Shown here piece after piece: positions 3,033 through 53,924 of a stretch of DNA of 64,000 bases. A model generated the notes under the pieces. The model was not told the origin of the DNA, did not search any database, and saw only the letters and a program-made list of their open reading frames with translations. This stretch comes from an uncultured Pseudomonas sp. (GTDB lineage: Bacteria > Pseudomonadota > Gammaproteobacteria > Pseudomonadales > Pseudomonadaceae). The stretch lies in contig NZ_CAJYDW010000020.1 in assembly GCF_913774235.1 (NCBI RefSeq), positions 1-64,000 on the forward strand, in the 5' to 3' direction. How positions within the stretch are numbered: the stretch's first letter is position 1; each line of letters starts with the position of its first letter. The translations under genes were made by a program, and so were the position numbers.

Positions 3033-4757
<1,725 letters not shown>

Positions 4758-5017
4758 GTATCACCTCATTCCACGCGTGGCGAACGCCCATCTGGGACGT
4801 TCAAGGTTCGGTTGACTGCAAGGCAGAGCACGGGCGACGGTGATCACCGACGATTCAGCTGCCTAGAAAGCCTTGTTGGAAGATTCCGATGAATGCTGGA
4901 GCTTCCACCCGACGCGAGGTAACGCGGTGCAGGGTATTTGACTGTGGCGGCGCGGGTAGGCACCTCATGGTCTGCCGAGGAGTCAGCTTTGGGCCGATTC
5001 GCTACAGCGAACTTTGG

Positions 5018-5046
5018 ATTGTTCGCATTCGTCCGACGCAAGTCAA
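5018..5046 (-). promoter_or_regulatory. Candidate sigma70 promoter for ilvI (396-bp gap 4758-5153)
   Basis: On the minus strand TTGACT and AACAAT are 17 bp apart. This is the best match found in the gap between ilvI and the divergent DUF4124 gene. It would give a leader of about 250 nt. On the plus strand TATAGT at 5117-5122 could be the -10 of the DUF4124 gene. I see no RNA gene, repeat or short ORF with a good ribosome site in the rest of the gap. Confidence 0.35.
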
Positions 5047-5153
5047 GCCGAAAGGTGCGGTTGCCCACAATCGGCGGCCGGTGGTCGGCCCTGGTGAAAT
5101 GGTCGACGCCAACTCTTATAGTGGGGCCTTGCCCTTCCGCCTATAGGATTCCC

Positions 5154-5618
5154 ATGCGCTCGATCTTCTGGCTTCCTGCCCTGGTTTTCGTCTGCAGCCT
5201 GTCCGCCCAGGCCGCCCAGGTCTACAAGTGGACCGACGACAAGGGCGTTACCCACTTCAGTGCCCAGCCGCCCGAGGGCCAGAAGGCCAATGAGGTGGAC
5301 GTGAAGGTGGCACCCCAGATCAATGGCGGTGGCAGTGCGCCCACCTACAAGCTGCCCAACGGTGCCCAGCAGCCATCGGTCTCCAACGACGCCCAGCAGC
5401 AGGAACTCGAGCGCAAGGTGAAGGCGCAGGTGCGCGAGGATCAGGCCAAGGTACAGGCGTACTGCGACCAGTCACGCCAGAATCTGGCCCAGCTGCGCAA
5501 CAATCCCCGCGTCATGGTGCAGTCGGGTCGGGGCGAAACCCGCCGCCTGACCGAGGAAGAGCGCGAGCAGCGGGCCGCGGAGATCCAGCTGTCGATCGAG
5601 CAGAATTGCGGCAAGTGA
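5154..5618 (+). CDS. DUF4124 domain-containing periplasmic protein
   Basis: This 154-residue protein has a cleavable signal peptide (MRSIFWLPALVFVCSLSAQA, then AQVYKW). It is followed directly by a DUF4124 domain (VYKWTDDKGVTHFSAQPP), a short module common in Pseudomonas envelope proteins, and a Gln/Arg-rich probably helical C-terminal half. The ATG at 5154 is chosen because it begins the signal peptide; the frame is open further upstream without a leader-like sequence. It ends 1 nt before the convergent yqcC gene, with no terminator in between. Its molecular function is unknown. Confidence 0.85.
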   Translation: MRSIFWLPALVFVCSLSAQAAQVYKWTDDKGVTHFSAQPPEGQKANEVDVKVAPQINGGGSAPTYKLPNGAQQPSVSNDAQQQELERKVKAQVREDQAKVQAYCDQSRQNLAQLRNNPRVMVQSGRGETRRLTEEEREQRAAEIQLSIEQNCGK

Positions 5619-5619
5619 C

Positions 5620-5946
5620 TCAGGCGCTTTCGATGAGCCGATCGAATTCGGCCAGGGAGGCCAGCAGGGGCAGCACGGGATCGAGGTCGCCCTGGTAGAC
5701 GACCTCGGCCATCGGCCGGATACCCGAGCGTACCGGTAGCGTGCCGTCGCTCTCGATGATCAGTTTCATCCGTGGCAGGAAAATCCACTGCAGCCACTGG
5801 GCGAAGCTCAGGGTGTCGACGCAGAAGGGCTCCTGGCTGGCCAGGGCTTCGGCACTGGGCGCGTGCACCGACCACCAGCCGAGCAGGCGCAATTCACGCT
5901 CGATCTGCAGCAACTGATCGGCCAGGGCGGGCAGGCGCTCGTCCAT
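5620..5946 (-). CDS. YqcC family protein (DUF446)
   Basis: This 108-residue soluble protein matches the YqcC/DUF446 family (WxxxxPSAEALASQEPFCVDTLSFxQWLQWIFLPRM core), a small helical fold of unknown role. The ATG at 5944-5946 overlaps the stop of the upstream lipoprotein gene by ATGA, so the two are translationally coupled. A longer open frame continues upstream but only shadows the lipoprotein gene. The same order (mrcB, lipoprotein, yqcC) occurs in other Pseudomonas genomes. Confidence 0.85.
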   Translation of the reverse strand: MDERLPALADQLLQIERELRLLGWWSVHAPSAEALASQEPFCVDTLSFAQWLQWIFLPRMKLIIESDGTLPVRSGIRPMAEVVYQGDLDPVLPLLASLAEFDRLIESA

Positions 5947-6722
5947 CAGGTGCCCGCCTGGGCTTTCTGCCGTGCCAGGGCGGCGCCGGACGCATCGCCC
6001 TGGGCTTCGCGGGCCTGGGCGATCAGTTGCCAGAGACTCGCTTGCAGCGCCGGCCGACCGTTGGCATAGGTAAGGGCACGGCGAGCCAGTTGCTCGCCCT
6101 GGGCGGGATCGTTCTGTGCCAGACGCACCTGCGCCAGCCGATAGAGCACCTGGGGCTCCCGTGGCGCGATGCGCATGGCCCGCTCCAGACTCGAGGAGGC
6201 ACCGTTGAGGTCGCCACCGGTCTGCTGTTGCTGCGCAGTGGTGAGCAGCGCCAGGACCGGCCCGTCCAGCTGTTCGTCGGCGGCCAGACCGCCACCGGTG
6301 GCGGCGCCCGCAGACGGAATGCCCGAAGGGGCACTGCTGGCGGCGCCGTAGCCGGTCTGATTGGCCGGCGGATAGACCGGTTGGGAGTAGCTGGGCTGCG
6401 CCGGCGCCTGGGCGGCAGGCGCGCTGGGACTGGACGAGGTGATCAGCGGCGCGGACGCGGCCGGGGCGGCATAGGTCTCCAGGGGTGCGGAACTGCCGCT
6501 CGGCACCATGACGGTCACCCCGGAGTCGGCCGGCGCACTGGGCGCAGTGGCGACCGGCGCCTGGCGCTGGACCGGCATGGGCCGGTTGTTGCCCTGGCGA
6601 TAGAGTTCGCCATTGGAGACGGGGCCACCGGAGTCGACCACGGGAATGGCGCCACGCTGCGGCGTGGCGCAACCGGCGAGAAGAACGCCGGCGATCATCA
6701 CCGGCCAGACTGCTTTCGTCAC
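5946..6722 (-). CDS. lpoP: TPR outer-membrane lipoprotein, probable PBP1B activator LpoP
   Basis: The 258-residue protein starts with a lipoprotein signal peptide ending in the lipobox L-A-G-C (Cys18). A low-complexity Pro/Ala/Ser linker follows, then two C-terminal TPR-like helical repeats (about residues 150-255). LpoP is the established outer-membrane activator of the bifunctional synthase PBP1B in P. aeruginosa and is encoded beside its partner. Here the gene starts 11 nt after mrcB. I chose the GTG at 6720-6722, preceded by AGAGG at good spacing; the upstream ATG lacks a ribosome site and spoils the signal peptide. The identification rests on context, lipobox and TPRs. Confidence 0.78.
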   Translation of the reverse strand: MTKAVWPVMIAGVLLAGCATPQRGAIPVVDSGGPVSNGELYRQGNNRPMPVQRQAPVATAPSAPADSGVTVMVPSGSSAPLETYAAPAASAPLITSSSPSAPAAQAPAQPSYSQPVYPPANQTGYGAASSAPSGIPSAGAATGGGLAADEQLDGPVLALLTTAQQQQTGGDLNGASSSLERAMRIAPREPQVLYRLAQVRLAQNDPAQGEQLARRALTYANGRPALQASLWQLIAQAREAQGDASGAALARQKAQAGT

Positions 6723-6733
6723 CTTGGGACCTC

Positions 6734-9076
6734 TCAATTCAACCAACCCTTGACCCAATCCATGACCGGATTGCCGCCGTTGCCGCTCTGCCCGGCGGCG
6801 GGTGCGGCCGGCGCGCCACAGGAGGCACCCGGCGGCGGCTCACTGCCGCGAATATAAGGCATCTGCACGGCATTGGGACACGAGGGGTCGGTGCCGCGAC
6901 CGGTCGTGGCATCCACCCAGGCCTGGACCACGTTGTCGGGCACCGGCATGTCCAGCGAGACCGGATCGGCGCGGCGCATGAAGTTGCTCCACACCTGCAG
7001 GGCGCCGGTCGCGCCGGTCAGGGGGGTTTTGCCGTTGTCGTCGCGACCCAGCCAGACCACCGCGAGCAGGTCCTGGCTGAAGCCGGAGAACCAGCTGTCG
7101 CGGGAGTCGTTGGTGGTACCGGTCTTGCCCGCCAGGTTCACGCTGGTGGGAATCTGGTTGTAGACCGAGCGCCCGGTACCTTCGCGCATGACACGCTGCA
7201 TGGCGTACTGCACCAGGTAGATGGCGCCGGTGTCGAAGCGCTGTTCGATCTGGAAGGGATAGCGCTTGAGCGGCTCGCCATTGGCGTCGAGCACGCTGCG
7301 GATGCTGCGCAACGGGGTGTTGAAACCGCCGTTGGCCAGCGTCTGGTACATGGTCGCCACTTCCATGGGCGTCAGGGCGCCAGCACCGAGCAGGGTCGCC
7401 GGATAAGGAGGCAGGGCACGGCTCACGCCCAGGCGCTGGACGGTCTTGAGCACCTCGGGCACGCCCAGGTCGAGGCCCAGGCGCGCGGTGGACAGGTTGT
7501 AGGAGTGCGCCAGCCCCTGGTAGAGGAAGATGGTGCCGTGGGCCTTGTGCTCGTAGTTCTGCGGCCGCCAGACCTGACCGTCGGCACCCTTGACCGAGAA
7601 GGGTTCGTCCTGGATCAGGGTGGTCAGGGTGTACTTGCTGGGCCGCTCCAGGGCAGTGAGGTAGACCGCCGGCTTGATCAGCGAGCCGACCTGACGGACC
7701 GCATCGAGGGCGCGGTTGTAGCCGGCGAAGCGCGGATCGCGACCGCCGAGCAGGGCTTGGACCTCACCGGTTTCCGGGTTGGTCACCACCATGGCCGACT
7801 CGACGTTTTCCGCGCCCTTGCGGCCATCGATGCGCTTCAAGGCCTCGGCCATGGCGGCCTCGGCCTTGGTCTGCAGGATCGGATCGAAGCTGGTGAAGAT
7901 GCGCAGGCCTTCCTCGGTAAGGTCTTCGTCGCGGTAATCCTGCTTCAGCTGGCGCTTGACCAGATCGACGAACGCCGGGAAGGAGCTGTTGGTCAGGCTG
8001 CCGGCCTTGGTGATACCCAGCGGCCGGGCCTTGGCAGCCTCGGCTTCGGTGGGACTGACCACGCCCTGCTCGGCCATGAGGTCGAGCACCAGATTGCGGC
8101 GCGCCATCGCACGCTCGGGATAGCGACGCGGATTGTAGTAGGAGGGTCCCTTCACCAGACCGATCAGCAAGGCCACCTGGTGCAGCTTCAGTTCGCTGAA
8201 GGGCTGGCCGAAGAAGTACTGGGCAGCCAGACCGAAACCGTGGATGGCGCGGGAGCCGTCTTGACCGAGGAAAACCTCGTTGAGGTAGGCCTCGAGGATT
8301 TCCTGCTTGCTGTAGTGCAGCTCCAGCAGCAGCGCCATGAGCGCTTCGGTGCCCTTGCGGGTGATGCTGCGCTCGTTGGTGAGGTAGAAGTTCTTCACCA
8401 GCTGCTGGGTCAGGGTACTGCCGCCCTGGCGAACCTGGCCGCTGGTGGCGTTGACCCAGACGGCGCGGGCGATGGACTTGGGCGAGACGCCGTGGTGATG
8501 CCAGAACTCACGGTCTTCGACCGCCACCAGGCCATCGACCAGGTGCGGCGGCGCCTGGTCCAGCTTGATGAGGATGCGGTCTTCATTGTGCGCCGGATAG
8601 ATGCCGCCGATCATCAGCGGCTCGAGGCGGGCTACGGCGAGGTTGCTGCCATCCAGGGCGCTGACGCCCGACACGGTGCCGCCGGCGAAGCGCACGCGGA
8701 TCGCCCGGGGCGGCTCGACACCCTCGTAGAACTGGAAGCCGCGGGTATTCAGATCGACCGTGGAGGCACCCACGGCGACGCTGCCGGGACCGTCCACGGT
8801 CTTTTCGCGGCGATAGCCGAGGGCATCGAGCTCGGTGAGGAAGTCGTCGCGGCTCAGCTTGACGCCGTTGAACAATTCCAGCGGCCGGGCATAGACCTTG
8901 GCCGGGATGGTCCAGCGCTTGCCGGAGAATTTTTCCTGGACCACGGCATCGAGATAGATGCACAGGCCGGCCAGGCCAACCAGCGCGACCAGGCCGAGCT
9001 TGATTGCCCAGCCGGAGAGACGGCGCCAGTCGAAGGTCTTGCGCTTGCGGGAACGGGAGGATCGGGGTCGCTTCAT
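6734..9076 (-). CDS. mrcB: Penicillin-binding protein 1B (bifunctional transglycosylase/transpeptidase)
   Basis: The 780-residue inner-membrane synthase polymerises lipid II and cross-links peptidoglycan. A basic cytoplasmic N-terminus is followed by one membrane helix (about 27-47). Next come the UB2H-type region, the GT51 glycosyltransferase (catalytic Glu in EDREFWHHHGVS, then RQGGSTLTQQLVKN) and the transpeptidase with SxxK (GSLIKP), SxN (SYN) and KTG (GKTGTTND). All catalytic motifs are intact. A consensus -10 (9085-9090) ends only 8 nt before the ATG, and no Shine-Dalgarno is visible. The gene leads the mrcB-lpoP-yqcC unit. Confidence 0.97.
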   Translation of the reverse strand: MKRPRSSRSRKRKTFDWRRLSGWAIKLGLVALVGLAGLCIYLDAVVQEKFSGKRWTIPAKVYARPLELFNGVKLSRDDFLTELDALGYRREKTVDGPGSVAVGASTVDLNTRGFQFYEGVEPPRAIRVRFAGGTVSGVSALDGSNLAVARLEPLMIGGIYPAHNEDRILIKLDQAPPHLVDGLVAVEDREFWHHHGVSPKSIARAVWVNATSGQVRQGGSTLTQQLVKNFYLTNERSITRKGTEALMALLLELHYSKQEILEAYLNEVFLGQDGSRAIHGFGLAAQYFFGQPFSELKLHQVALLIGLVKGPSYYNPRRYPERAMARRNLVLDLMAEQGVVSPTEAEAAKARPLGITKAGSLTNSSFPAFVDLVKRQLKQDYRDEDLTEEGLRIFTSFDPILQTKAEAAMAEALKRIDGRKGAENVESAMVVTNPETGEVQALLGGRDPRFAGYNRALDAVRQVGSLIKPAVYLTALERPSKYTLTTLIQDEPFSVKGADGQVWRPQNYEHKAHGTIFLYQGLAHSYNLSTARLGLDLGVPEVLKTVQRLGVSRALPPYPATLLGAGALTPMEVATMYQTLANGGFNTPLRSIRSVLDANGEPLKRYPFQIEQRFDTGAIYLVQYAMQRVMREGTGRSVYNQIPTSVNLAGKTGTTNDSRDSWFSGFSQDLLAVVWLGRDDNGKTPLTGATGALQVWSNFMRRADPVSLDMPVPDNVVQAWVDATTGRGTDPSCPNAVQMPYIRGSEPPPGASCGAPAAPAAGQSGNGGNPVMDWVKGWLN

Positions 9077-42483: not shown

Positions 42484-42500
42484 GCTTTGCGGCCTGGGGA

Positions 42501-43325
42501 TCAGGCGTCGAGGGGGAAGCCCCGCTCCGGGAAGAACAGCCGCTGCAACTCCTGCCCGGGCTCGTCGGCGCGCATGAAGGCTTCGCCGACCAGGAAGGCC
42601 CGCACCTCGTTGGTTTCCATCAGTTCCACGTCGGCGCGATTGAGGATGCCGCTCTCGGTGATCACCAGACGATCCTGGGGAATGCGCGGCAGCAATTCCA
42701 GGGTGTGGTCCAGCGTGACCTCGAAGGTGTGCAGGTTGCGGTTGTTGATACCCACCAGCGGAGTGTCCAGCACGGTCAGCGCGCGCTCCAGCTCGTCACC
42801 ATCATGCACCTCGACCAGCACGTCCAGGCCGACGCTCTTCGCGGTAGCAGCCAGTTCGGCCATCTGGCCATCGTCCAGCGCCGCGACGATCAGCAGGATG
42901 CAGTCGGCGCCGATGGCGCGGGCTTCCACCACCTGGATGGGATCGACGAGGAAATCCTTGCGGATCACCGGCAGCTGGCAGGCGGCGCGGGCCTGCTGCA
43001 GATAGGCGTTGCCGCCCTGGAAGAAATCCACGTCGGTGAGCACGCTCAGGCAGGTAGCACCGCCCAGGGCGTAACTGTGGGCGATCTCCGCCGGGACGAA
43101 GTGTTCACGGATCACGCCCTTGCTCGGCGAGGCCTTCTTCACCTCGGCGATGACCGCCGCCTGCTTGCGCGCCACCTGGGCCTGCAGGGCGCGGGCGAAG
43201 CCGCGCGGGGCATCGGCGGCGCGGGCCTGGGCCTCGAGTTCGGCCAGGCTGGTACGAGCCTTGAGCTGGGCGATTTCCTCGGCCTTGCGGGCCAGGATCT
43301 TCTGCAACACGGTGGGCACGGTCAC
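42501..43325 (-). CDS. trpC: Indole-3-glycerol-phosphate synthase
   Basis: The 274-residue monofunctional TIM-barrel enzyme closes the indole ring in tryptophan synthesis. [29 protein letters not shown] and ESGI are intact. The start is GTG at 43323-43325 overlapping the trpD stop (GTGA), so translation is coupled. It is the last gene of trpGDC, and trpF is not fused to it as in enterics. Confidence 0.95.
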
Positions 43326-44371
43326 GTGCGATTCTCCTCTCGATAGACGGACGTGAAATGGGCCAATTCCTCGAGTTTTTCCCGAGCCAGCCCACTGTAG
43401 AGCGCATCGTGGGCGAGCAGAACCCCCTCGTGCAGGCTATGGGCGAGATCCGCAGCGTAGAGCGCCGCGCCGGCATTGAGCACGATCATGTCGGCGGCCT
43501 TCTGGCCGGCTTCGGTCTTGCGCCGACCGAGGGCATCGCGGATCAGCGCCAGGGAGGCCTCGGGGCCGTCCACGGTGAGGCCGACCAGGGTCTGGCTCTT
43601 GATGCCCAGGTCCTCGGGCAGCACCTCGTACTCACTGATGCTGCCGTCCTTGAGTTCGGCGACCTGGGTCGCCGCGGCCAGGCTGAATTCGTCCAGCCCA
43701 TCGCGGGAGTGCACCACCAACACGTGGTGGCTGCCCAGGCGCTGCAGGACCTCGGCCAGCGGCCGACAGAGGGCGGCGCTGAACACCCCGACCACCTGGT
43801 GGCGCACGCCGGCCGGATTGGTCAGGGGGCCGAGCATGTTGAACAGGGTGCGCAACCCCAGGGAGCGACGCGGGCCGGCGGCATGGCGCATGGCGCTGTG
43901 GTGCGCCTGGGCGAACATGAAGCCGACGCCCACCTGCTCGACGCAGCGAGCGATCTGCGCGGGCGTCAACTCCAGGTAGATGCCGGCGGCCTCCAGCAGG
44001 TCGGCGCTGCCGCTCTTGCCGGACACGGCGCGATTGCCGTGCTTGGCCACCTTGCCGCCCGCCGCCGCGACCACGAACACCGAGGCCGAGGAGACGTTGA
44101 AGATGTTGGCGCCATCGCCACCGGTGCCTACCACGTCGACCACGTGGTCGAGCGTCGGCAGCACCACCGGGGTGGCCAGCTCGCGCATCACGCTGACCGC
44201 GCCGCAGATCTCGTCGATGGTCTCGCTCTTGATGCGCATGCCCATGAGGAAGGCACCGATCTGCGCTTCGTCGGCGCCGCCGGTCATGATCTGGCGCATC
44301 ACCGCCTGCATCTCGGCCACATTGAGGTCGAGTTGTCCGCTGATGCGATTCAGGGCCTGCTTGATGTCCAT
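43322..44371 (-). CDS. trpD: Anthranilate phosphoribosyltransferase
   Basis: The 349-residue enzyme transfers phosphoribose from PRPP to anthranilate. The PRPP-binding [16 protein letters not shown] and the [15 protein letters not shown] segment are conserved. It is separate from trpG, in contrast to enteric TrpGD fusions. Its start abuts the trpG stop. Confidence 0.95.
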
Positions 44372-44965
44372 CTAGCGGCGCCCTCCCTGCTGCTTGAGGA
44401 AGTTGGCCAGCAGATCGTGACCGTGCTCGGTGAGGATTGACTCGGGGTGGAACTGCACCCCCTCGATCATGAACTCACGGTGCCGCAGCCCCATGATCTC
44501 ATCGATGCTGCCGTCCGGATGCTGGGTCCAGGCGGTGATCTCCAGGCAGTCGGGCAGGGTTTCGCGCTTGACCACCAGCGAGTGGTAGCGGGTCACGGTG
44601 AAGGGATTGGGCAGGCCGGCGAAGACGCCCTCGCCGTTGTGGTAGACCGGGCTGGTCTTGCCATGCATCGGCTCGCGCGCCCGCACCACCTCGCCACCGA
44701 AGGCCTGGCCCAGGCTCTGGTGACCCAGGCAGACACCCAGCACCGGCAGCTTGCCGGCGAAGCGCTCCAGGGTGGCCAGGGAGATGCCGGCCTCGTTGGG
44801 CGTGCAAGGGCCGGGGGAGACGACGATGCGCTCCGGTGCCAGTTCTTCGAGTGCCTCGACCGGCACTTCGTCGTTGCGCACCACCTTGACCTCGGCGCCC
44901 AGCTCGCCCAGGTACTGCACCAGGTTGTAGGTAAAGGAATCGTAGTTATCGAGCATCAGCAGCAT
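44372..44965 (-). CDS. trpG: Anthranilate synthase, glutamine amidotransferase subunit
   Basis: The 197-residue class I amidotransferase supplies ammonia to TrpE. The nucleophile Cys79 lies in [16 protein letters not shown], and the His-Glu pair in VQFHPES. Its partner trpE is about 7.5 kb away at 52446-53924, on the same strand. It leads trpGDC and is preceded by a Trp-rich leader peptide. Confidence 0.95.
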
Positions 44966-45062
44966 GGCGGATCACCCTTGGAATCGATTGCAGCTGTGGA
45001 AATGGACTCAGCTTCGCCACGGCGCCGGAAGTGGCTGGCCGGGGGCTGGAACGACAAGGCGG

Positions 45063-45077
45063 GCCGGACGCACCGGC
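45063..45077 (-). promoter_or_regulatory. Hairpin after the trpGDC leader peptide
   Basis: GCCGG-N5-CCGGC begins 9 nt after the leader stop codon on the minus strand. A hairpin with the same GCCGG stem is found after the trpE leader. It is probably part of the alternative structures used in attenuation, though no clean T-tract terminator was found. Confidence 0.4.
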
Positions 45078-45086
45078 AGGGGGATG

Positions 45087-45131
45087 TCAGGCGCGCCAGC
45101 GCCAACGGGCGTGGGCCTTGAAGAGAGGCAT
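45087..45131 (-). CDS. trpGDC leader peptide (attenuation)
   Basis: The 14-codon ORF MPLFKAHARWRWRA has two Trp codons separated by one Arg, ending 122 nt before trpG. It shares 10 of 14 residues with the trpE leader at 53997-54041, including the identical ARWRWRA end. Ribosome stalling at the Trp codons when charged tRNA-Trp is scarce would favour an antiterminator. The ribosome site is weak. Confidence 0.8.
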   Translation of the reverse strand: MPLFKAHARWRWRA

Positions 45132-45184
45132 CGAGAGGGCGGCGCTGCAGGTCACGGGATGGATTCCGACGTGGTTCTCTCCGC

Positions 45185-45213
45185 ACAGTAGCCCAGCCGG
45201 CGGCCCGGTGCAA
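45185..45213 (-). promoter_or_regulatory. Candidate trpGDC promoter
   Basis: The minus strand has TTGCAC, a 17-bp spacer and TACTGT, about 55 bp before the leader peptide. It lies directly after the end of the GntR gene. Confidence 0.6.
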
Positions 45214-45224
45214 CCGCTGGCGGT

Positions 45225-45887
45225 TCAGCTCCCGAGTCGACCATAGGCCGCCAGCACGGTCCGCTCGGACTGCACCAGGTAGCTTTCCAGCGCCGCCGTG
45301 GCCTCGATGGGTTTACCCGCCTCCAGCAACTCGATGATGGCGACGTTCATCTCCAGGTAGGGAGCGTGGAGGAATTCCGGATCCTTGAGCAGGCCGAAGG
45401 CCAGCCGCAACTCGGCGGAGAGTTGGTCATAGAAGGCCGACAGTCGCGGGCTGTCGGCCAGTTCGACGATGGCGGCGTGAAAGGCCATGTTGGCGGTACC
45501 CACCGCGACCCAGTCCTGGGCCGCCCGCGCCTGCTGGGCCGCCGTGACCGCCTCGCGCATGCGCAGCGCGCCGGGATGGCGTGGATAGGCTTGAGCCAGC
45601 GCCTGGCACTCGATGAAGCGGCGTACCCGGTAGATGTCGATGATCGAGGCCATGTCGGGTACGCAGACGAACACCCCGCGATTGGGTTCGTGCTTGAGCA
45701 AGCCCTCCTGGGTCAGCACCCGGAAGGCCTCGCGCAGGGTATTGCGGGAGATCTCCAGGCGTTCCGCCAGCGCCGCTTCGGACAGGCGTTGGCCAGGCTT
45801 GAGCTCGCCTTCCACCAGTTGGCGGCGGATCTCGGCGGTCACGGACTCGCCGAGGGTACGGGCATTGTCGGGCACAGGGGTCTTCAT
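45225..45887 (-). CDS. GntR-family regulator (FadR/FCD subfamily)
   Basis: The 220-residue protein has an N-terminal winged HTH (QRLSEAALAERLEISRNTLREAFRVLTQEGLL) and an all-helical FCD effector domain (about 85-210) with His/Asp ligands for a metal and an acid effector. The ATG at 45885-45887 is chosen because it gives the usual distance to the HTH. It is divergent from the pxp-type operon, so it probably regulates it in response to an organic or amino acid. The palindrome at 46035-46045 is a candidate operator. Confidence 0.88.
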   Translation of the reverse strand: MKTPVPDNARTLGESVTAEIRRQLVEGELKPGQRLSEAALAERLEISRNTLREAFRVLTQEGLLKHEPNRGVFVCVPDMASIIDIYRVRRFIECQALAQAYPRHPGALRMREAVTAAQQARAAQDWVAVGTANMAFHAAIVELADSPRLSAFYDQLSAELRLAFGLLKDPEFLHAPYLEMNVAIIELLEAGKPIEATAALESYLVQSERTVLAAYGRLGS

Positions 45888-46034
45888 GGATGTTCCGGGG
45901 CAGGCAGTCGCGGTGCGATGGTGTCCGAGGGCGAAGGCTAAGGCAAGAAAACCTGGTACCTGCGCACCAGGAGGTAGCATTTTTGAGTAATCGAGTAACA
46001 ACTTGGTGCACATGAAAGAACTATGACAATATTT

Positions 46035-46045
46035 TTGTTGAACAA
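46035..46045. promoter_or_regulatory. Candidate GntR operator
   Basis: TTGTTGAACAA is a perfect palindrome around one base, of the size and pattern bound by FadR-type GntR proteins. It lies between the divergent regulator and the operon, about 45 bp upstream of the sigma54 -24 box. Confidence 0.45.
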
Positions 46046-46088
46046 TAAATCCATGTAAAACCTACAAATATCGTTTTTTGTCCTTGGG

Positions 46089-46104
46089 TGGCACAGAGGT
46101 TGCG
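46089..46104 (+). promoter_or_regulatory. Sigma54 promoter of the pxp-type operon
   Basis: TGGCACAGAGGTTGCG matches the RpoN consensus TGGCACRNNNNTTGCW at nearly every position, with the correct GG-N10-GC spacing. Transcription would begin near 46115, 27 nt before the first gene. A sigma54 activator such as NtrC or CbrB is needed. A GGTGCAC half-site near 46005 may be relevant to NtrC. Confidence 0.8.
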
Positions 46105-46141
46105 TTGGCCGGAGCACGACCTCTCGTCAAGGAACGCCCCC

Positions 46142-47383
46142 GTGACCCAGACCGCCACCACTGCCAATGCCTTTGCCAAGGACCGCCGAGCCTCACTGAT
46201 CGCCGCCATCTTCCTGATGGCCACCTCGGCCATCGGCCCCGGTTTCCTCACCCAGACCGCCACCTTCACCGCCAAGCTGGGCGCCGCCTTCGCCTTCGGC
46301 ATCCTTGCCTCCATCCTCATCGACTTCGTGGTCCAGCTGAACGTCTGGCGCATCGTCGCCCTGACCCGCATGCGCGCCTCGGATATCGCCAATGCGGCCA
46401 TTCCCGGCAGCGGCTATCTGTTGGCGGTACTGGTGATCTCCGGCGGCCTGGTGTTCAGCCTGGGCAACATCGCCGGCGCCGGCCTCGGCCTGAATGCGCT
46501 GCTCGGCCTCGACCCGGCCTGGGGTGGCGCCCTCAGTGCGCTGGTGGCGATCGGCATCTTCCTGTCGCACCGCGCCGGGGTTGCCATGGATCGCATCATG
46601 GTGGTGCTGGGGGTGTTCAAGGTGGCGCTGATCGTGCTCGCCTGTTTCGCCTCCCATCCGCCCGTGGGCGAGGCCCTGCGCCAGACGATCTTCCCGGACG
46701 TGCTGGACTTCGCCTCCATCACCACCATCGTCGGCGGTACCGTAGGCGGCTACATCACCTACGCCGGCGCTCACCGCCTGCTGGACCGCGGCACCGTCGG
46801 CGTGGAAAACCTCGAGGCGGTCTCCAAGGCTGCGCTCAGCGGCATCCTGGTCACCGGCATCGCCCGCTACGTGCTGTTCCTGGCCATCTTCGGGGTGGTC
46901 GCCAGCGGTGTGGTGATCGACGTCTCCGGCCAGGCCGCCAACCCGGCCGCCCAGGCCTTCGACGCCAGTCTCGGCGAATACGGTCTGCGCGTGTTCGGCC
47001 TGATCCTCTGGGCCGCCGGCATCAGCAGCATCATCGGCGCCTCCTACACCTCGATGACCTTCATCACCGTGTTCTCGAAGAACATCACCGAGCGGGCGCG
47101 CAATCTCTGCACCGTGGTCTTCGTGCTGATCGCCCTGGCCATCTACCTGCTGATCGGCAAACCGCCGGCCGCCCTGCTGGTGTTCGCCGGTGGCTTCAAC
47201 GGCCTGATCCTGCCGCTCGGCTTGACGCTGTTCATGTACGTCGGCTGGCGCCGCTCCGACCTCATGGAGGGCTACCACTACCCCCGCTGGCTGCTGGTGC
47301 TCGGTGCCCTCACCTGCCTGCTGTCGTGGTACATGGCGGTCAAGTCCGCCGGTCCCATCTTCGCCCTGCTCAACGCCGCCTGA
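46142..47383 (+). CDS. NRAMP-fold membrane transporter (YcsG-like) lacking the metal ligands
   Basis: The 413-residue protein has about 11 membrane helices and overall NRAMP similarity. In helix 1 the canonical metal-binding DPGN is replaced by GPGF (about residues 32-35), and in helix 6 the MPH motif is replaced by AGAH (about 210). It is therefore unlikely to carry Mn2+ or Fe2+ in the usual way. Homologues such as Bacillus YcsG lie in 5-oxoprolinase operons, so an organic substrate is plausible. The start is GTG at 46142 with AAGGA 8 nt upstream; an earlier in-frame ATG overlaps the sigma54 promoter and is rejected. Confidence 0.85.
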   Translation: MTQTATTANAFAKDRRASLIAAIFLMATSAIGPGFLTQTATFTAKLGAAFAFGILASILIDFVVQLNVWRIVALTRMRASDIANAAIPGSGYLLAVLVISGGLVFSLGNIAGAGLGLNALLGLDPAWGGALSALVAIGIFLSHRAGVAMDRIMVVLGVFKVALIVLACFASHPPVGEALRQTIFPDVLDFASITTIVGGTVGGYITYAGAHRLLDRGTVGVENLEAVSKAALSGILVTGIARYVLFLAIFGVVASGVVIDVSGQAANPAAQAFDASLGEYGLRVFGLILWAAGISSIIGASYTSMTFITVFSKNITERARNLCTVVFVLIALAIYLLIGKPPAALLVFAGGFNGLILPLGLTLFMYVGWRRSDLMEGYHYPRWLLVLGALTCLLSWYMAVKSAGPIFALLNAA

Positions 47384-47398
47384 TCCCGGGAGATCCCT

Positions 47399-48169
47399 AT
47401 GCCGACCATCGATCTGAACAGCGACCTGGGCGAAAGCTTCGGTCAGTGGCAGATGGGCGACGATGCCGCCATGCTCGACATCGTCACCAGCGCCAACGTC
47501 GCCTGCGGCTTCCACGCCGGCGATCCCGCCGGCATCCTGCGCACCCTGCAGGCAGCCGCCGCCAAGGGCGTGGCGGTGGGTGCCCACGTCGCCTATCCCG
47601 ACCTGGTGGGTTTCGGCCGGCGCAATCTGGACATCGCCAGCGACGAGCTGACCGCCGACGTGCTCTACCAGATTGGCGCCCTGCAGGCCCTGGCACGCGC
47701 CGCCGGGACGCGGGTGAGCTACGTCAAGCCGCACGGCGCCCTGTACAACACCATCGCCCAGGACGAACGCCAGGCGCAGGCGGTGATCGCCGCCCTGCGC
47801 CAGCTGGACCAAGGCCTGGTGCTGGTCTGCCTGGCCGGCTCGCCGCTGCTCGGCTGGGCGCGGGACGCCGGCCTGACCTGCGTCGCTGAGGCCTTCGCCG
47901 ACCGCGCCTATACGCCGGAAGGCACCCTGGTCTCGCGACGCCTGCCCGGCGCGGTGCTGCACGATGCCGAACTCGTCGCCCAACGCATGCTGCGCCTGGT
48001 GCAGGACGGCGTGGTGGAGGCCATCGACGGCAGCCTGACACCCATCGAGGCCGAGTCCATCTGCGTCCATGGCGACAGCCCCGGCGCGGTGGACATGGCC
48101 CGCGCCCTGCGTCGCCATCTCGAACTCGCCGGGGTCATCCCCCGCGCCTTCACGGAGGTCCAACCATGA
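47399..48169 (+). CDS. pxpA: 5-oxoprolinase subunit A (LamB/YcsF family)
   Basis: The 256-residue protein matches Pxp[12 protein letters not shown] at the N-terminus, then [12 protein letters not shown] and VKPHGALYN, which carry the conserved metal or catalytic Asp and His residues. With PxpB and PxpC it performs ATP-dependent opening of 5-oxo-L-proline to glutamate, as shown in Bacillus and E. coli. It lies 15 nt after the transporter, and ATGA overlap couples it to the next gene. Confidence 0.92.
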
Positions 48170-48972
48170 ATCCGCTCAAAGCCGCCCAGGACGCCGCCAT
48201 CGCCGCCGCCCGCGAGGCCCGCGCCCGCTATCGCGACGGCCTGGTCGCCCCCAGTGCCGGCGTCGCCCCCGGCATGACCCAGGCCAATCTCATCGCCCTG
48301 CCGCGCGACTGGGCCTACGACTTCCTGCTCTATGCCCAGCGCAATCCCCAGGCCTGCCCGGTGCTGGACGTCACCGATGCCGGTAGCTACCGCACGCCGC
48401 TGGCCGAGGGCGCCGACCTGCGCACCGACCTGCCGCTGTATCGCGTCTGGCGCGACGGCGTACTGGTGGAGGAAGTGGCCGACGGCCGCGCCGCCTGGGC
48501 CGAGCATGGGGACCTGGTGACCTTCCTGATCGGCTGCAGCTTCACCTTCGAGACCGGCCTGCTGGAAGCCGGCATCGAGATCCGCCACATCACCGATGGC
48601 TGCAACGTGCCCATGTACCGCACCAACCGCGCCTGCCGCCCGGCGGGCCGCCTGCATGGCGAGATGGTGGTGTCCATGCGCCCCATCCCGGCCGAGCGGG
48701 TCGCCGAGGCGGCCACCATCACCGGCCGCTATCCGGCGGTGCATGGTGCCCCGGTGCACATCGGCGAACCGGCGCGGCTGGGCATCGCCGACCTGGCGCG
48801 GCCGGACTTCGGCGATGCCGTGCGCATCGAGCCGGGTGAGATCCCGGTGTTCTGGGGCTGCGGCGTCACCCCCCAGGCAGCGGTCATGGCCTCCAAGGTG
48901 CCCTTCGCCATTACCCATGCGCCCGGCCACATGTTCATCACCGACGTGCCCGATCGCACCTACCACGTCTAG
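48166..48972 (+). CDS. DUF1445 putative hydro-lyase (YcsI-like / D-glutamate cyclase family)
   Basis: The 268-residue protein shows the DUF1445 pattern ([18 protein letters not shown], [17 protein letters not shown] region, [25 protein letters not shown]). The family includes mammalian D-glutamate cyclase, which makes 5-oxo-D-proline from D-glutamate, and Bacillus YcsI. Cysteines in IGCSF, DGCNVP and WGCGVT are conserved candidates for catalysis. A role in feeding or draining the 5-oxoproline pool fits the operon. The actual reaction is not proven. Confidence 0.85.
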
Positions 48973-48981
48973 GAGAAGCCC

Positions 48982-50586
48982 TTGCGTTTTCTGCCCGTCA
49001 ACCTGGATGCACTGCTGGTGGAGCTGGCCGATCTCGACGAGACCCTAGCCCTGTTCGACGCCCTGCAGACCCGGCCGCTGCCCGGGATCGAGGAGATCGT
49101 CCCGGCAGCCCGCACCCTGCTGGTCCAGTTCCGTCCCAGCGCCCTGAAAGCGGCCGACCTGGTGGACCATATCGCCGCCCTGCCCCTCGACGGTGGTGGC
49201 CGCGAGGCCGGCAAGCTCGTCGAGATCCCGGTGCACTACAACGGTGAGGACCTGGACGAAGTGGCCCGGCTGCTCGGCCTGAGCTTGGCCGAGGTGATCC
49301 GCCGCCATACCGGCAGCGACTACCAGGTGGCCTTCTGCGGCTTCGCCCCGGGCTTCGGCTATCTCAGCGGCGGCCCAGGCTTCCAGGTGCCGCGGCGCGC
49401 TTCACCGCGTACCCGGGTGCCGGCCGGCTCGGTGGCTATCGCCGGAGGGTTCGCCGCCGTCTACCCCCAGGCCAGTCCTGGTGGCTGGCAACTGCTGGGG
49501 GTGACACCCCTGCACCTCTGGGACCTGTCGCGCCCCGAGCCGGCGCTGCTGCGTCCCGGCTACCGGGTGCGCTTCCATGACGCCGGCCCGCTGCCCACCG
49601 GCGGCCTGCCCGAAGCACCGGTCGCAGCCCCCGCCGCGCCGGTCACCGCGGACTATCTGGAAATCCTCACCCCCGGCCTACGCACCCTGCTGCAGGACCT
49701 TGGCCGCCCGGGCCAGACCGGCCAGGGCGTCTCCGCCTCCGGCGCCCTGGATCGCGGCGCCCTGCGCGCGGCCAATCGCGCGGTGGGCAACGAACCGAGC
49801 AGCGGCTGCCTGGAAATCCTGCTGGGCGGCTTCAGTTGCGTCTGCCACGGCCAGGCCCTGGTCGCCGTCACCGGCGCCCCGGCGCCGCTGGAGGTGCTGA
49901 CCCGCAGCGGTCGCCGGTTGCAGCCCGCGCCCTACCAACCTTTCCTCTTGGAAGACGGCGACCGCCTGAGCCTGGGCAGTCCGCCCACCGGGCTACGCAG
50001 CTACCTGGCACTGCGCGGCGGCTTCGCCGTGGCCCCGGTACTGGGCAGCCTGGCATTCGATACCCTGGCCAACGTCGGCCCGGCGCCCCTGGCCGCCGGC
50101 GACCACCTGGGCTTCCATCCCCTGGTCGGTGGCACTGCCGTGTCCTGCAACGAAACCGCTCCCCTGGCGCTGCCCAGCGCCGACCAGGAAGTGATGCTCG
50201 ACGTGGTCCTCGGCCCACGCAGCGACTGGTTCACCGCCACCGCCCTGGAGACCCTGGCCGGGCAGAGCTGGCGCGTCACGCCCCAGTCCGACCGGGTCGG
50301 CATCCGCCTGGCCGGCGAGACGCCCCTGGAACGCCAGGTGGCCGGCGAGCTGCCCAGCGAAGGCACCGCCCTGGGCGCCATCCAGGTACCGCCCAACGGC
50401 CAGCCGGTGCTGTTCCTCGCCGACCATCCGCTCACCGGCGGCTATCCGGTGATCGGTGCCGTCGCCAGCCACCACCTGGACCTGGCCGGGCAGATCCCGG
50501 TCGGCGCCCGTATCCGCTTCAATCCGCTGGGCCCCTTTGCTGAACTGCGCCCCAGCGCTTCCCCTGCTGCCGAGAACACCCGATGA
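48982..50586 (+). CDS. Fused 5-oxoprolinase subunits PxpB-PxpC (KipI-KipA type)
   Basis: The 534-residue protein joins a PxpB/KipI domain (about 1-205; [35 protein letters not shown]) to a PxpC/KipA domain (about 225-520; [28 protein letters not shown]-like, [12 protein letters not shown]). A Pro/Ala linker lies around 205-225. In most bacteria these are separate genes. The pair is homologous to the carboxyltransferase part of urea carboxylase. The start is TTG at 48982-48984 with AGGAG upstream. It overlaps the next gene by 4 nt. Confidence 0.9.
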
Positions 50587-52307
50587 AAAAAGTCCTGATC
50601 GCCAACCGCGGCGAGATCGCCGTCCGCATCGTCCGCGCCTGCCGTGACTACGGTGTGGCCTCGGTAGCCGTCTATGCCGACGCCGACTTCGACGCCCTGC
50701 ACGTGCACCTGGCCGACGAGGCCTATGGCCTGAACGGCCAGCGTCCGGCCGAGACCTACCTGGACATCGCCAAGCTGCTGGACGTGGCTCGCCGCGCCGG
50801 CGCCGATGCCGTCCACCCCGGCTACGGCTTCCTCTCCGAGCGCGCCGACTTCGCCCGCGCGGTGCAGGCAGCCGGCCTGACCTGGATCGGTCCGAATCCG
50901 GACACCATCGACGCCCTGGGCGACAAGGTGCAGGCCCGGCGCATCGCCCTGGGCGTCGGTGCGCCGCTGGTGGCCGGCACCGAAGACCCGGTGAGCGGCG
51001 CCGCCGAGGTGCTGGCCTTCGCCGAGGAGCACGGCCTGCCCATCGCCATCAAGGCGGCCTTTGGCGGCGGTGGACGTGGCCTCAAGGTGGCCTGGCGCCT
51101 GGACGAGGTGGCCGAGCTGTACGAATCGGCGGTCCGCGAGGCCACTGCCGCCTTCGGCCGCGGCGAATGCTTCGTCGAGCGCTTCCTCGACCGTCCGCGG
51201 CACATCGAAGCCCAGGTCCTGGCCGACCGCCATGGCCGGGTCGAGGTGGTGGGTACCCGCGACTGCTCGCTGCAGCGGCGCAACCAGAAACTGGTGGAAG
51301 AGGCGCCCGCGCCCTTCCTCGACGACGCCCTGCGCCAGCGCATCCACGCCTCCGCCCGCGACATCTGCGCCGCCGCCGGCTACGTCGGCGCCGGCACCGT
51401 GGAATTCCTGCTCAGCCAGGACGGCACCCTGTCCTTCCTGGAGGTCAACACCCGCCTGCAGGTGGAGCACCCGGTCACCGAGGAAACCAGCGGTCTGGAC
51501 CTGGTGGTCGAGCAACTGCGCATCGCCGACGGCCTGCCGCTGTCCTTCAACGAGGTGCCGGCACCCCGCGGACACAGCTTCGAATTCCGCATCAATGCCG
51601 AAGACCCGGGTCGCGGCTTCCTGCCGACTCCGGGCCCCATCACCGCCTTCCGCGCTCCCAGCGGTCCCGGCATCCGCCTGGACAGCGGCGTGGCGGCCGG
51701 CTCCCAGGTAGCGCCCAACTTCGACTCCATGGTCGCCAAGCTGATCGTCACCGGCGCCACCCGCGAGCAGGCCATCGCCCGCGCCCGTCGCGCCCTGGCC
51801 GAATTCAGCGTGGAAGGCGTGGCCACGGTACTGCCCTTCCACCAGGCGGTGATGGCCCACGCCGACTTCACCGGCGCGGCCTTCGCCGTGCACACCCGCT
51901 GGATCGAGACGGTATTCGCCGAGCAGATCGCCCTGGCGCCACGCAGCGAGCCGGCGGACGACGGCGTGCTGCGCACCTTCGTCGAGATCGACGGCCGCCG
52001 CCATGCCCTGGGCCTACCCAGCGCTCTGCTACGCGGCCTGGCGGTCAATGCCCCAGCGGCCGAAGCGGTCGCGGCCGCACCGGCCGCAGACGCCAATGCC
52101 CTCACCACCCCGGTGGCCGGCAACCTGCACGCCTGGACGGTGGAGGACGGCGCCGCGGTCGCAGCCGGTCAGGTGGTAGCGGTGATGGAAGCGATGAAGA
52201 TGGAAACCCAGGTCCTCGCCCCCCGCGCCGGGCGCCTGGCGATCACCCAGGCGGCCGGAGACTACCTGGCGGCTGGCGCCGTCCTGGGACGGATCGAGGA
52301 CGTTTAG
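50583..52307 (+). CDS. Biotin carboxylase fused to biotin carboxyl carrier domain
   Basis: The 574-residue protein has biotin carboxylase N-terminal, ATP-grasp ([15 protein letters not shown], about 157-171; [15 protein letters not shown]) and C-terminal domains (about 1-445). A linker is followed by a BCCP lipoyl-like domain (about 500-574) with biotinyl Lys539 in EAMKMET. It is shorter than pyruvate or acyl-CoA carboxylase alpha chains and has no classical carboxyltransferase partner nearby. The neighbouring PxpB-PxpC protein supplies the only plausible acceptor domain. This suggests a biotin-dependent amide or lactam carboxylase. Confidence 0.9.
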
Positions 52308-52319
52308 GTGGAGTGCCTT

Positions 52320-52399
52320 ATCGCGGCCATGGCGGTCCGCCGATGCGGCCGCTCCTACGGGCACTGAGCTAACCTGTAGGAGCGGCCCATGGCCGCGAT
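52320..52399. repeat. Second REP-type pair (REPIN)
   Basis: The right arm (52374-52399) is identical to that at 33247-33272. The left arm is split: ATCGCGGCCATGG (52320-52332) and GGCCGCTCCTAC (52347-52358) are separated by an extra 14 nt. A partial copy (AGGAGCGGCC) follows at 52422-52431. It lies between the biotin carboxylase and trpE genes. Confidence 0.85.
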
Positions 52400-52445
52400 C
52401 AGCAAAACGCCGGAATCTTCCAGGAGCGGCCGCGTTGGCTAAGCC

Positions 52446-53924
52446 CTAAACCTTCCCTTCCGCCAACTTCACCGCGCGGAACATGGCGCGACGCTTGTTG
52501 AGGGTCTCTTCCCACTCCGCCGCCGGCTGGGAGTCGGCGACGATGCCGCCGCCCGCCTGCACATGCAGCTCGCCGTCCTTGATCACCGCGGTGCGGATGG
52601 CGATGGCGGTGTCCATGTTGCCGTTCCAGGCCAGATAGCCCACGGCGCCGCCGTAGATGCCACGCTTGACCGGCTCCAGTTCGTCGATGATCTCCATGGC
52701 GCGGATCTTCGGCGCCCCAGACAGGGTGCCGGCCGGCAGGATGGCACGCAGGGCGTCCATGGCGGAGAGCTCGGGCTTGAGCCGCCCGGTGACGTTGCTG
52801 ACGATGTGCATCACGTTGGAATAGCGCTCGATGACCATCTTCTCGGTCAGGGTCACGCTGCCGGTGGCGGAGACCCGGCCCACGTCGTTGCGGCCCAGGT
52901 CGATCAGCATCAGGTGCTCGGCCAGTTCCTTGGCGTCGGCCAGCAGGTCGCGCTCCAGCGCCAGGTCGGCCTCTTCGGTAGCCCCGCGCGGGCGGGTACC
53001 GGCGATGGGGCGCACGGTGATCTCGCCGTCCTCCACCCGCACCAGCACCTCGGGCGAACTGCCGACCACATGGAAGTCGCCGAAGTTGAAGAAGTACATG
53101 TAGGGCGTGGGGTTGAAGCAGCGCAGCGCTCGATAGAGATCGATGGGCGCGGCCTTAAAATCGATGGTCATGCGCTGCGACGGCACCACCTGCATGCAGT
53201 CGCCGGCCAGGATGTAATCCTTGATCCGCGCCACCGCATTCTCGTAGTCGTCACGGCTGTAGCTGGAGCGGAAAGCCGGCTCGCCAGGCACCTGCATGGC
53301 AGTGAAGTCCAGACCCAGACGCGGTGCGATAGGCTGGCGGATGCGCTCGCGCAACGCGGCCAGACGCGCCTGGCCCTGCTCGTAGGCCTCCGGCTGGGCC
53401 GGGTCCACCAGCACGATGCAGTGCAGCTTGCCGGCGAGGTTGTCGAAGACCACCACCTCGTCCGACACCATCAGCAGGATGTCCGGCGTGCCCAGCGGAT
53501 CGGGATTGGGCGAGGCACCCAGGCGTTTTTCCACGTAACGCACGCAGTCATAGCCGAAGTAACCCACCAGACCGCCATCGAATTTCGGCAGATTGGGCAC
53601 CACCGGCACACGATAGCGGCTCTTGAAGGCCTCGACGAAGGCCAGCGGATCCTCGACGGTAGAGGCTTCGAGTTGCTGCTCGCCCTCGTGCACCGTCACC
53701 TGGTAGCCGTGCACCCGTAGCAGCGTCCGGCACGGCAGGCCGATGATCGAGTAGCGCCCCCACTTCTCGCCGCCCTGCACCGACTCCAGCAGATAGGAAT
53801 TCGGCGCATCGGCCAGCTTCAAGTAAAGAGAGAGGGGGGTGTCGAAGTCGGCCAGGGTTTCGAAGGCCAGGGGAATGCGGTTATAGCCTTGAGCGGCCAG
53901 GCGCAGGAAGTCGTCGCGGGTCAT
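52446..53924 (-). CDS. trpE: Anthranilate synthase component I
   Basis: The 492-residue chorismate-using enzyme makes anthranilate with TrpG. The Trp feedback site [15 protein letters not shown] is near residue 45, and the catalytic part has [32 protein letters not shown] and the C-terminal IRTAV...[11 protein letters not shown]. The gene is unlinked from trpGDC as in other pseudomonads, and downstream of rpe-gph. A leader peptide with two Trp codons precedes it. Confidence 0.96.

Follow-up and report, generated by a model that had tools for sequence, protein, structure and literature searches.

A Pseudomonas operon joining PxpA and a PxpB-PxpC fusion to its own biotin carboxylase: a candidate biotin-dependent 5-oxoprolinase

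The operon and its two fused enzymes

The window analysed here is a stretch of 64,000 nucleotides from an uncultured Pseudomonas sp. (contig NZ_CAJYDW010000020.1, positions 1 to 64,000), whose source genome measures 5.13 Mb and whose closest named loci are those of Pseudomonas sp. EpS/L25, P. rhizoryzae and P. oryzihabitans (PxpBC identity 93-95%). Between positions 46142 and 52307, five plus-strand genes encode, in order, an NRAMP-fold transporter, PxpA, a D-glutamate-cyclase-family protein (PF07286, presumably the former DUF1445), a PxpB-PxpC fusion (PxpBC) and a fusion of biotin carboxylase (BC) with biotin carboxyl carrier protein (BCCP). These genes, a divergent regulator gene and a promoter-like box are as follows.

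45225..46013 as listed open reading frame (ORF), minus strand: GntR/FCD transcription regulator, divergent (Pfam GntR and FCD); the compared part starts at an inner Met and has 220 amino acids
46089..46103, plus strand: sigma54 (-24/-12) promoter-like box TGGCACAGAGGTTGC, 38 nt before the inferred transporter start
46142..47383, plus strand: NRAMP-fold transporter of the PxpT/YcsG kind, likely a 5-oxoproline importer (Nramp PF01566, E 1.5e-19; GTG start inferred)
47399..48169, plus strand: PxpA, LamB/YcsF family, putative ring-opening hydrolase (LamB_YcsF PF03746, E 6.4e-103)
48166..48972, plus strand: D-glutamate cyclase family protein, an optional member (D-Glu_cyclase PF07286, E 8e-70)
48982..50586, plus strand: PxpB-PxpC fusion, carboxyltransferase-like, of the biotin-partner type (CT_C_D PF02682 and CT_A_B PF02626 in one chain; Phe157, Trp180, Ala43)
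50583..52307, plus strand: BC-BCCP fusion, AccA3-like (Biotin_carb_N, CPSase_L_D2, Biotin_carb_C and Biotin_lipoyl in one chain)

An earlier note on this DNA had described the same five genes with both fusions, and the Pfam domains bear this out; they also agree with its picture of a split urea-carboxylase-like architecture, in that BC, CT_A_B, CT_C_D and BCCP domains are all found, in two adjacent chains. The tight packing with 4-nt overlaps that it described is seen at two of the four junctions (48166-48169 and 50583-50586), the other two being gaps of 15 and 9 nt. PxpA passes NCBIfam NF003814 (379.8 bits, cut-off 226). PxpBC falls below the NCBIfam equivalog cut-offs for PxpB and PxpC (TIGR00370, 130.9 against 145.55; NF045499, 166.7 against 500) and passes only the general TIGR00724 (231.6 against 230.2), and we therefore file the operon as a PxpABC variant rather than as standard PxpABC. 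The BC-BCCP has the features generally expected of a biotin-dependent carboxylase, with the biotinylation motif EAMKMET present and the BC domains intact; the BC domain can be aligned across its motifs with two further BCs encoded in the genome, and the protein is predicted to carry biotin.

A conserved BC-BCCP partner related to AccA3

Related loci were collected by a PxpBC scan of genome contigs; the 79 considered here come from the best 80 of 368 relatives, a set that may lack records very close to the window. PxpA is present in all 79 (partial, at a contig end, in L085), an NRAMP-fold transporter in 59, and an adjacent BC-BCCP in 76, spanning alpha-, beta- and gammaproteobacteria and Actinomycetota, so that the pairing of PxpBC with a neighbouring BC-BCCP on which the earlier note had built its proposal holds up across the survey. 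Among the three misses, the contig of L091 ends inside PxpBC; the other two, L092 (Leucobacter) and L093 (Curtobacterium), are Actinomycetota with one full-length BC-BCCP homologue each elsewhere in the genome (61% and 59% identical). Actinomycetota with BC-BCCP in the operon are represented by L089 and L090 (Sinomonas), and the L090 genome holds a second, AccA3-like copy elsewhere (L200) besides that of its operon (L196). The distribution of this operon type is patchy: it occurs in 6 of 13 genomes of the genus (open frame 537) and in 10 of 198 genomes of the family at E 1e-60, a count that may be too low given that at most seven first-look candidates were scored per genome.

A second set consisted of 100 regions around PF02682 matches, 98 of them among the matches listed (to about E 3e-45, a limit that favours PxpB over urea-carboxylase-like carboxyltransferases; 163 of 398 genomes match) and two others. 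They were picked for spread before their BC neighbours were known, with a preference for long open frames that raises the share of fused PxpBC. The set splits into 15 regions with a dedicated BC-BCCP, all 15 with PxpA, 78 without BC (no BC match of at least 200 bits in the fetched region, about 6 kb on each side, some regions being cut by contig ends) and 7 with another BC; L186, with a BC of the AccC clade, is for that reason not counted among the dedicated regions.

Several PxpB residues follow this division. Phe157 is present in 15/15 regions with a dedicated partner (15/16 if L186 is counted among them), in 1/78 without a nearby BC, where 66 have Gln, and in 1/7 with another BC. Trp180 is distributed in the same way (15/15, 1/78 and 1/7, with Phe in 57 of the 78), and Ala43 is found in all 15 regions with a dedicated partner. 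A naive Fisher test for Phe157 (15/15 against 1/78) gives p = 2e-16, a value that is too small because of shared descent. Across the 79 named loci, 74 have Phe at position 157 and four have Tyr; the remaining one has a gap there and is L095 (Pseudomonas sp. TH10), in which the PxpBC frame is broken and the other four operon proteins are still matched. One region without a nearby BC, L170 (G392:C1:1540533-1553144), has PxpB and PxpC in one open frame together with the canonical Gln157, and fusion alone is therefore no predictor of a biotin partner.

The AlphaFold2 model of PxpBC (pLDDT 91.4) matches the structures of TTHA0988, MSMEG_0435-0436, YbgJK and urea carboxylase; a second fold search gave no clear family beyond this first list, and families outside its own list may still match. 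For BC-BCCP the best PDB match is AccA3 (E 1.7e-214, 717 bits), followed by 5mlk (708 bits), which is probably also AccA3, and then by a match of 470 bits. These two lines of comparison meet in PDB entry 9yx5, which by its title and chain names is a long chain acyl-CoA carboxylase complex of Mycobacterium smegmatis with MSMEG_0435-MSMEG_0436 bound, its chains including PxpB/PxpC and AccA3. The mycobacterial PxpB of this entry has the FCGFAPGF and F[SA]xVYP forms seen in the window PxpBC. In a tree of 56 BC domains (thinned from 109 BC rows, with a long-branch warning, and with M. smegmatis AccA3 itself outside it), the operon BC-BCCPs cluster with AccA3-like proteins from three actinobacterial genomes (100/100), and the five other BCs of the window's genome fall outside this cluster. 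We infer that the same system may exist in two states, with its own operon copy of BC-BCCP or with a shared AccA3 acting in trans.

The earlier note had allowed that BC-BCCP might serve an unrelated carboxyltransferase elsewhere in the genome. CoA-type Carboxyl_trans domains (PF01039) are absent from the operon and give four matches in the genome, all on other contigs; one lies about 1.8 kb from a BC match on contig C18, and the sizes of the other three recall, in our estimation, AccA/AccD/Mdc subunits. Among these four, no orphan needing BC-BCCP was seen, the identity of three being open, and a CoA-type partner elsewhere was on this basis set aside.

Substrate, proposed mechanism and competing readings

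By comparison, the genes present and how widely they are conserved, the grouping of BC-BCCP, the solved relative of the complex, the partner-linked PxpB residues and the 5-oxoproline-related neighbours together suggest that the operon probably encodes a PxpABC 5-oxoprolinase of a biotin-dependent kind. The stable ring of 5-oxoproline, a cyclised amino acid, would be N-carboxylated by BC-BCCP and PxpBC and then opened by PxpA. The parts of this proposal differ in strength: a dedicated BC-BCCP/PxpBC complex is very likely, its action on 5-oxoproline is likely, and opening of the lactam via N-carboxylation is put forward with moderate confidence. The NRAMP-fold transporter would import 5-oxoproline, BC-BCCP would make carboxybiotin from ATP and bicarbonate, and PxpBC, as the carboxyltransferase for BC-BCCP, would move the carboxyl group onto the lactam nitrogen. 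The resulting N-carboxy lactam would be imide-like and more easily hydrolysed, and PxpA would open it, in the role that allophanate hydrolase has after urea carboxylase; the N-carboxyglutamate product would then shed CO2 to give glutamate. No description of a biotin-dependent 5-oxoprolinase was found in the literature searched (most subscription papers and all preprints lay outside its coverage), and the way in which PxpB and PxpC would use ATP to activate 5-oxoproline has itself been put as an assumption ('It is assumed'; PMC13274462).

The earlier note had named 5-oxoproline or another lactam as substrate, and the neighbours of the related operons narrow this towards 5-oxoproline. Pyroglutamyl peptidase releases the L form of this compound. 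An ORF with its motif lies between DUF969/DUF979 and pxpA in five named loci and four second-set biotin-type regions (3/3 of those tested are Peptidase_C15), and the motif also occurs in eight second-set regions without BC. The DUF969/DUF979 pair is found in 9/79 named loci, 4/15 second-set dedicated regions and 7/78 regions without BC, and these neighbours are therefore common to both operon types. For Campylobacter jejuni, a preliminary experiment is reported in which a cj0552-4 mutant (DUF969, DUF979, DUF2891) no longer grew on 5-oxoproline (PMC12795558), and one relative, L080, has in its flank a gene for a TRAP solute-binding protein, a class in which binding proteins for 5-oxoproline have been described (PMC13274462). 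Together, these neighbours and the C. jejuni mutant point towards 5-oxo-L-proline. PxpT is required for growth of Corynebacterium glutamicum on 5-oxoproline (PMC13274462); a rival report has Bacillus subtilis YcsG as a Mn importer (PMC10448178).

A number of observations weigh against a biotin-dependent carboxylation. The general base of urea carboxylase, Lys1605 in the numbering of Kluyveromyces lactis urea amidolyase (PMC5770610), aligns with Arg138 of PxpBC, and Arg also occupies this position in 78/78 PxpBs without a nearby BC, so that the site is not simply urea-carboxylase-like. Common descent and PxpBC fusion both confound the association of Phe157, Trp180 and Ala43 with the partner. 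The draft genome of L091 has no close BC-BCCP elsewhere (best match 46% over residues 2-438), the PxpBC of 9yx5 could be a regulator or a passenger, and the D-glutamate cyclase would yield 5-oxo-D-proline, of the other handedness. The same genome has a plain pxpABC, which makes the biotin version look redundant for 5-oxo-L-proline, and B. subtilis and C. glutamicum use 5-oxoproline via operons without an adjacent BC gene (PMC13274462). Finally, the Pseudomonas putida 5-oxoprolinase, considered further below, is reported to phosphorylate 5-oxoproline and to have subunits of 75 and 63 kDa (PMC6061476), and PMC8453981 reports no bicarbonate need for it. The earlier proposal of a biotin-dependent carboxylation and ring opening is supported by the gene set, the 76/79 partnership, the 9yx5 assembly and the substrate neighbours, and is strained by Arg138 in place of Lys and by the plain pxpABC.

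Among the alternatives, the same complex could act on another lactam or amide, such as 5-oxo-D-proline, 2-pyrrolidinone or a hydantoin, with plain PxpABC handling 5-oxo-L-proline. We consider this unlikely, even with a plain pxpABC in the genome and a cyclase family gene in 54/79 loci by tblastn (55 by ORF search). Pyroglutamyl peptidase adjoins pxpA in nine biotin-type loci of the two sets (three confirmed), the DUF969/DUF979 pair is shared with seven regions without BC, and the cyclase family is missing from 25/79 biotin-type loci yet present in 9/78 fetched regions without BC. A D-specific enzyme that hinges on the cyclase was a further candidate, weakened in that the gene is optional and also found in regions without BC.

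It is improbable that the BC part makes only carboxyphosphate (or runs an ATPase cycle) and that 5-oxoproline is phosphorylated on PxpBC, with no carboxylation of the lactam by biotin. The replaced Lys general base would suit such a course, as would the reported phosphorylation of 5-oxoproline by the P. putida enzyme (PMC6061476), and a carboxyphosphate intermediate has been considered for bicarbonate-dependent lactamases of another family (PMC8453981, PMC11033972); against it stands the full BCCP domain kept with EAMKMET, since a mechanism of this kind needs none. Membership in urea carboxylase itself was ruled out by Arg for Lys1605 and by TIGR02712, the model for the single-chain enzyme, to which the matches score 151.8 and 514.8 bits against a cut-off of 1303.85; the urea carboxylase of this genome and the split PxpB on contig C6 both have Lys at the Lys1605 position.

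That PxpBC is an inhibitor or regulator of carboxylation bound to BC-BCCP is very improbable. KipI was originally reported to inhibit a kinase, and in 9yx5 the MSMEG_0435-0436 pair is bound to an acyl-CoA carboxylase complex; here, however, BC-BCCP belongs to the operon, falls in its own clade and has no CoA-type carboxyltransferase beside it in the operon, which would leave little to regulate, and PxpA accompanies PxpBC in every related locus. Most remote of all is a plain ATP-dependent PxpABC merely sharing its operon with an unrelated biotin carboxylase gene, for although 78 of the 100 fetched pxp regions lack an adjacent BC gene, the 76/79 adjacency over several classes, which by itself excludes a chance neighbourhood, is joined by the PxpB residues that track the partner, by the separation of BC-BCCP in the tree and by the assembly in 9yx5.

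Regulation and relation to other carboxyltransferase systems

The operon and its regulator sit between minus-strand ORFs that we read, from their translations, as trp genes on both sides (window 42500-53924), and downstream of it an inverted repeat-like sequence with GTAGGAGCGGCC (window 52310-52430) resembles what we take to be a Pseudomonas REP element. The sigma54-type box has two matches in the window where 0.25 are expected, and a single box is therefore modest evidence. A TGGC[AC][CT]N5TTGC box stands upstream of the operon in 46/79 related loci: with taxa taken from the record titles, these are 46 of the 47 loci titled Pseudomonas or (L044) gammaproteobacterium, the miss being L052, and 0/32 of the others. 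The operon would be expressed from this sigma54 promoter and, for that reason, probably under nitrogen limitation; inspection by eye for an NtrC site upstream gave nothing firm. The GntR/FCD regulator is matched by tblastn in 71/79 related loci, and in C. glutamicum pxpTABC is controlled by a GntR-type repressor that binds 5-oxoproline (PMC13274462). The MSMEG_0435-0436 pair is tied to nitrogen control by two sets of values: a list of genes raised in nitrogen limitation gives msmeg_0435 a value of 2.40 and msmeg_0436 one of 2.17 (PMC4617892), and MSMEG_0435, listed as allophanate hydrolase subunit 2, is lowered (-2.38) in a PII deletion mutant table (PMC11001197).

The genome holds four systems of this general kind, namely the window operon, a plain pxpABC without a nearby BC (L005), a urea carboxylase with allophanate hydrolase (L006) and the following split cluster.

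G000:C6:97500-108500, 3775-8076, minus strand: split biotin-type cluster L007 (pxpA/BC/pxpB/pxpC) with separate PxpA, BC, PxpB and PxpC; PxpB with the urea-carboxylase-like Lys (QVPKYLRPRT)

The window operon shares with PxpABC 5-oxoprolinase the PxpA, PxpB and PxpC proteins, the NRAMP-fold transporter, the GntR-type regulator and the optional cyclase-family gene, and DUF969/DUF979 adjoin relatives of both types; it differs in the fusion of PxpB to PxpC, in the dedicated BC-BCCP and in having Phe157 for Gln (66/78) and Trp180 for Phe (57/78). With urea carboxylase or urea amidolyase it has in common BC, CT_A_B, CT_C_D and BCCP and, by our proposal, the logic of carboxylation followed by hydrolysis, although there are two chains instead of one, PxpA in place of allophanate hydrolase, and Arg for Lys1605. 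The assembly in 9yx5 has, as its chain names indicate, a PxpB-PxpC with similar motifs in an AccA3-containing complex, but its BC-BCCP is a shared acyl-CoA carboxylase subunit and its PxpB and PxpC are separate chains. L007 likewise combines PxpA with a biotin carboxylase and carboxyltransferase subunits, whereas its BC, PxpB and PxpC are separate, its PxpB has the urea-carboxylase-like Lys and its BC lies in another clade. The OplAB/CapAB lactamases of the hydantoinase/oxoprolinase family also open lactams at the expense of ATP, and a bicarbonate need is reported for them (PMC8453981, PMC11033972); the five operon proteins gave no Pfam match (E up to 0.001) to hydantoinase A/B domains.

A third arrangement is seen in L150, L167 and L186 (family f51), in which an AccC-clade BC lies beside PxpA and a divergent PxpB (GSAPGFGYLHG or GSAPGFGYLYG, GMQTGVA), and in L111 (G086:C114:12069-24662) a PxpB with the canonical signature directly adjoins an accC-like gene. 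A six-gene operon of Staphylococcus aureus includes pxpB, pxpC, pxpA, accB and accC (PMC11315280), and canonical PxpABC may also be tied to biotin.

The P. putida enzyme and the meaning of the operon

The 5-oxoprolinase of P. putida, whose sequence is described as not reported (PMC6061476), comprises a component A, a hexamer of 64 + 51 kDa dimers with 5-oxoproline-dependent ATP hydrolysis, and a component B of 82 kDa that is required for amide hydrolysis (PMC8453981). The computed masses here are 60.5 kDa for BC-BCCP, 55.5 kDa for PxpBC and 26.9 kDa for PxpA (trimer 80.7 kDa), and those of Pseudomonas farsensis, which has the operon (L052), are 61.5, 55.4 and 26.3 kDa; in the plain locus of the window's genome, PxpB and PxpC are separate proteins of 23.8 and 33.0 kDa. 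The P. putida sizes fit BC-BCCP, PxpBC and a PxpA trimer better than plain PxpB and PxpC, which is a lead and not proof. We presume P. farsensis to be placed near P. putida.

A bolder extension, which we regard as doubtful, would make all prokaryotic 5-oxoprolinase biotin-based: PxpB-PxpC would be a carboxyltransferase everywhere, carboxybiotin would be borrowed from housekeeping AccA3 or AccB/AccC where an operon has no BC-BCCP of its own, and component A of the 1980s P. putida work would be BC-BCCP/PxpBC and component B PxpA.

For at least one branch of the family, the version with a dedicated BC offers a concrete and testable answer, carboxylation rather than phosphorylation, to how 5-oxoproline is activated. 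The proposal also suggests an interpretation of the PxpB-PxpC pair in the AccA3-containing 9yx5 and of the accB and accC genes in pxp operons, which have been regarded as fatty-acid genes (PMC11315280). The identity of the P. putida 5-oxoprolinase may be revealed by it as well. With four systems in one genome, this Pseudomonas would be a good host for comparing them, and it raises the question of why the biotin form has been kept. If the proposal is true, the operon would encode a type of biotin enzyme in which CO2 serves catalytically as the activating group when a lactam is opened, in parallel to urea carboxylase.

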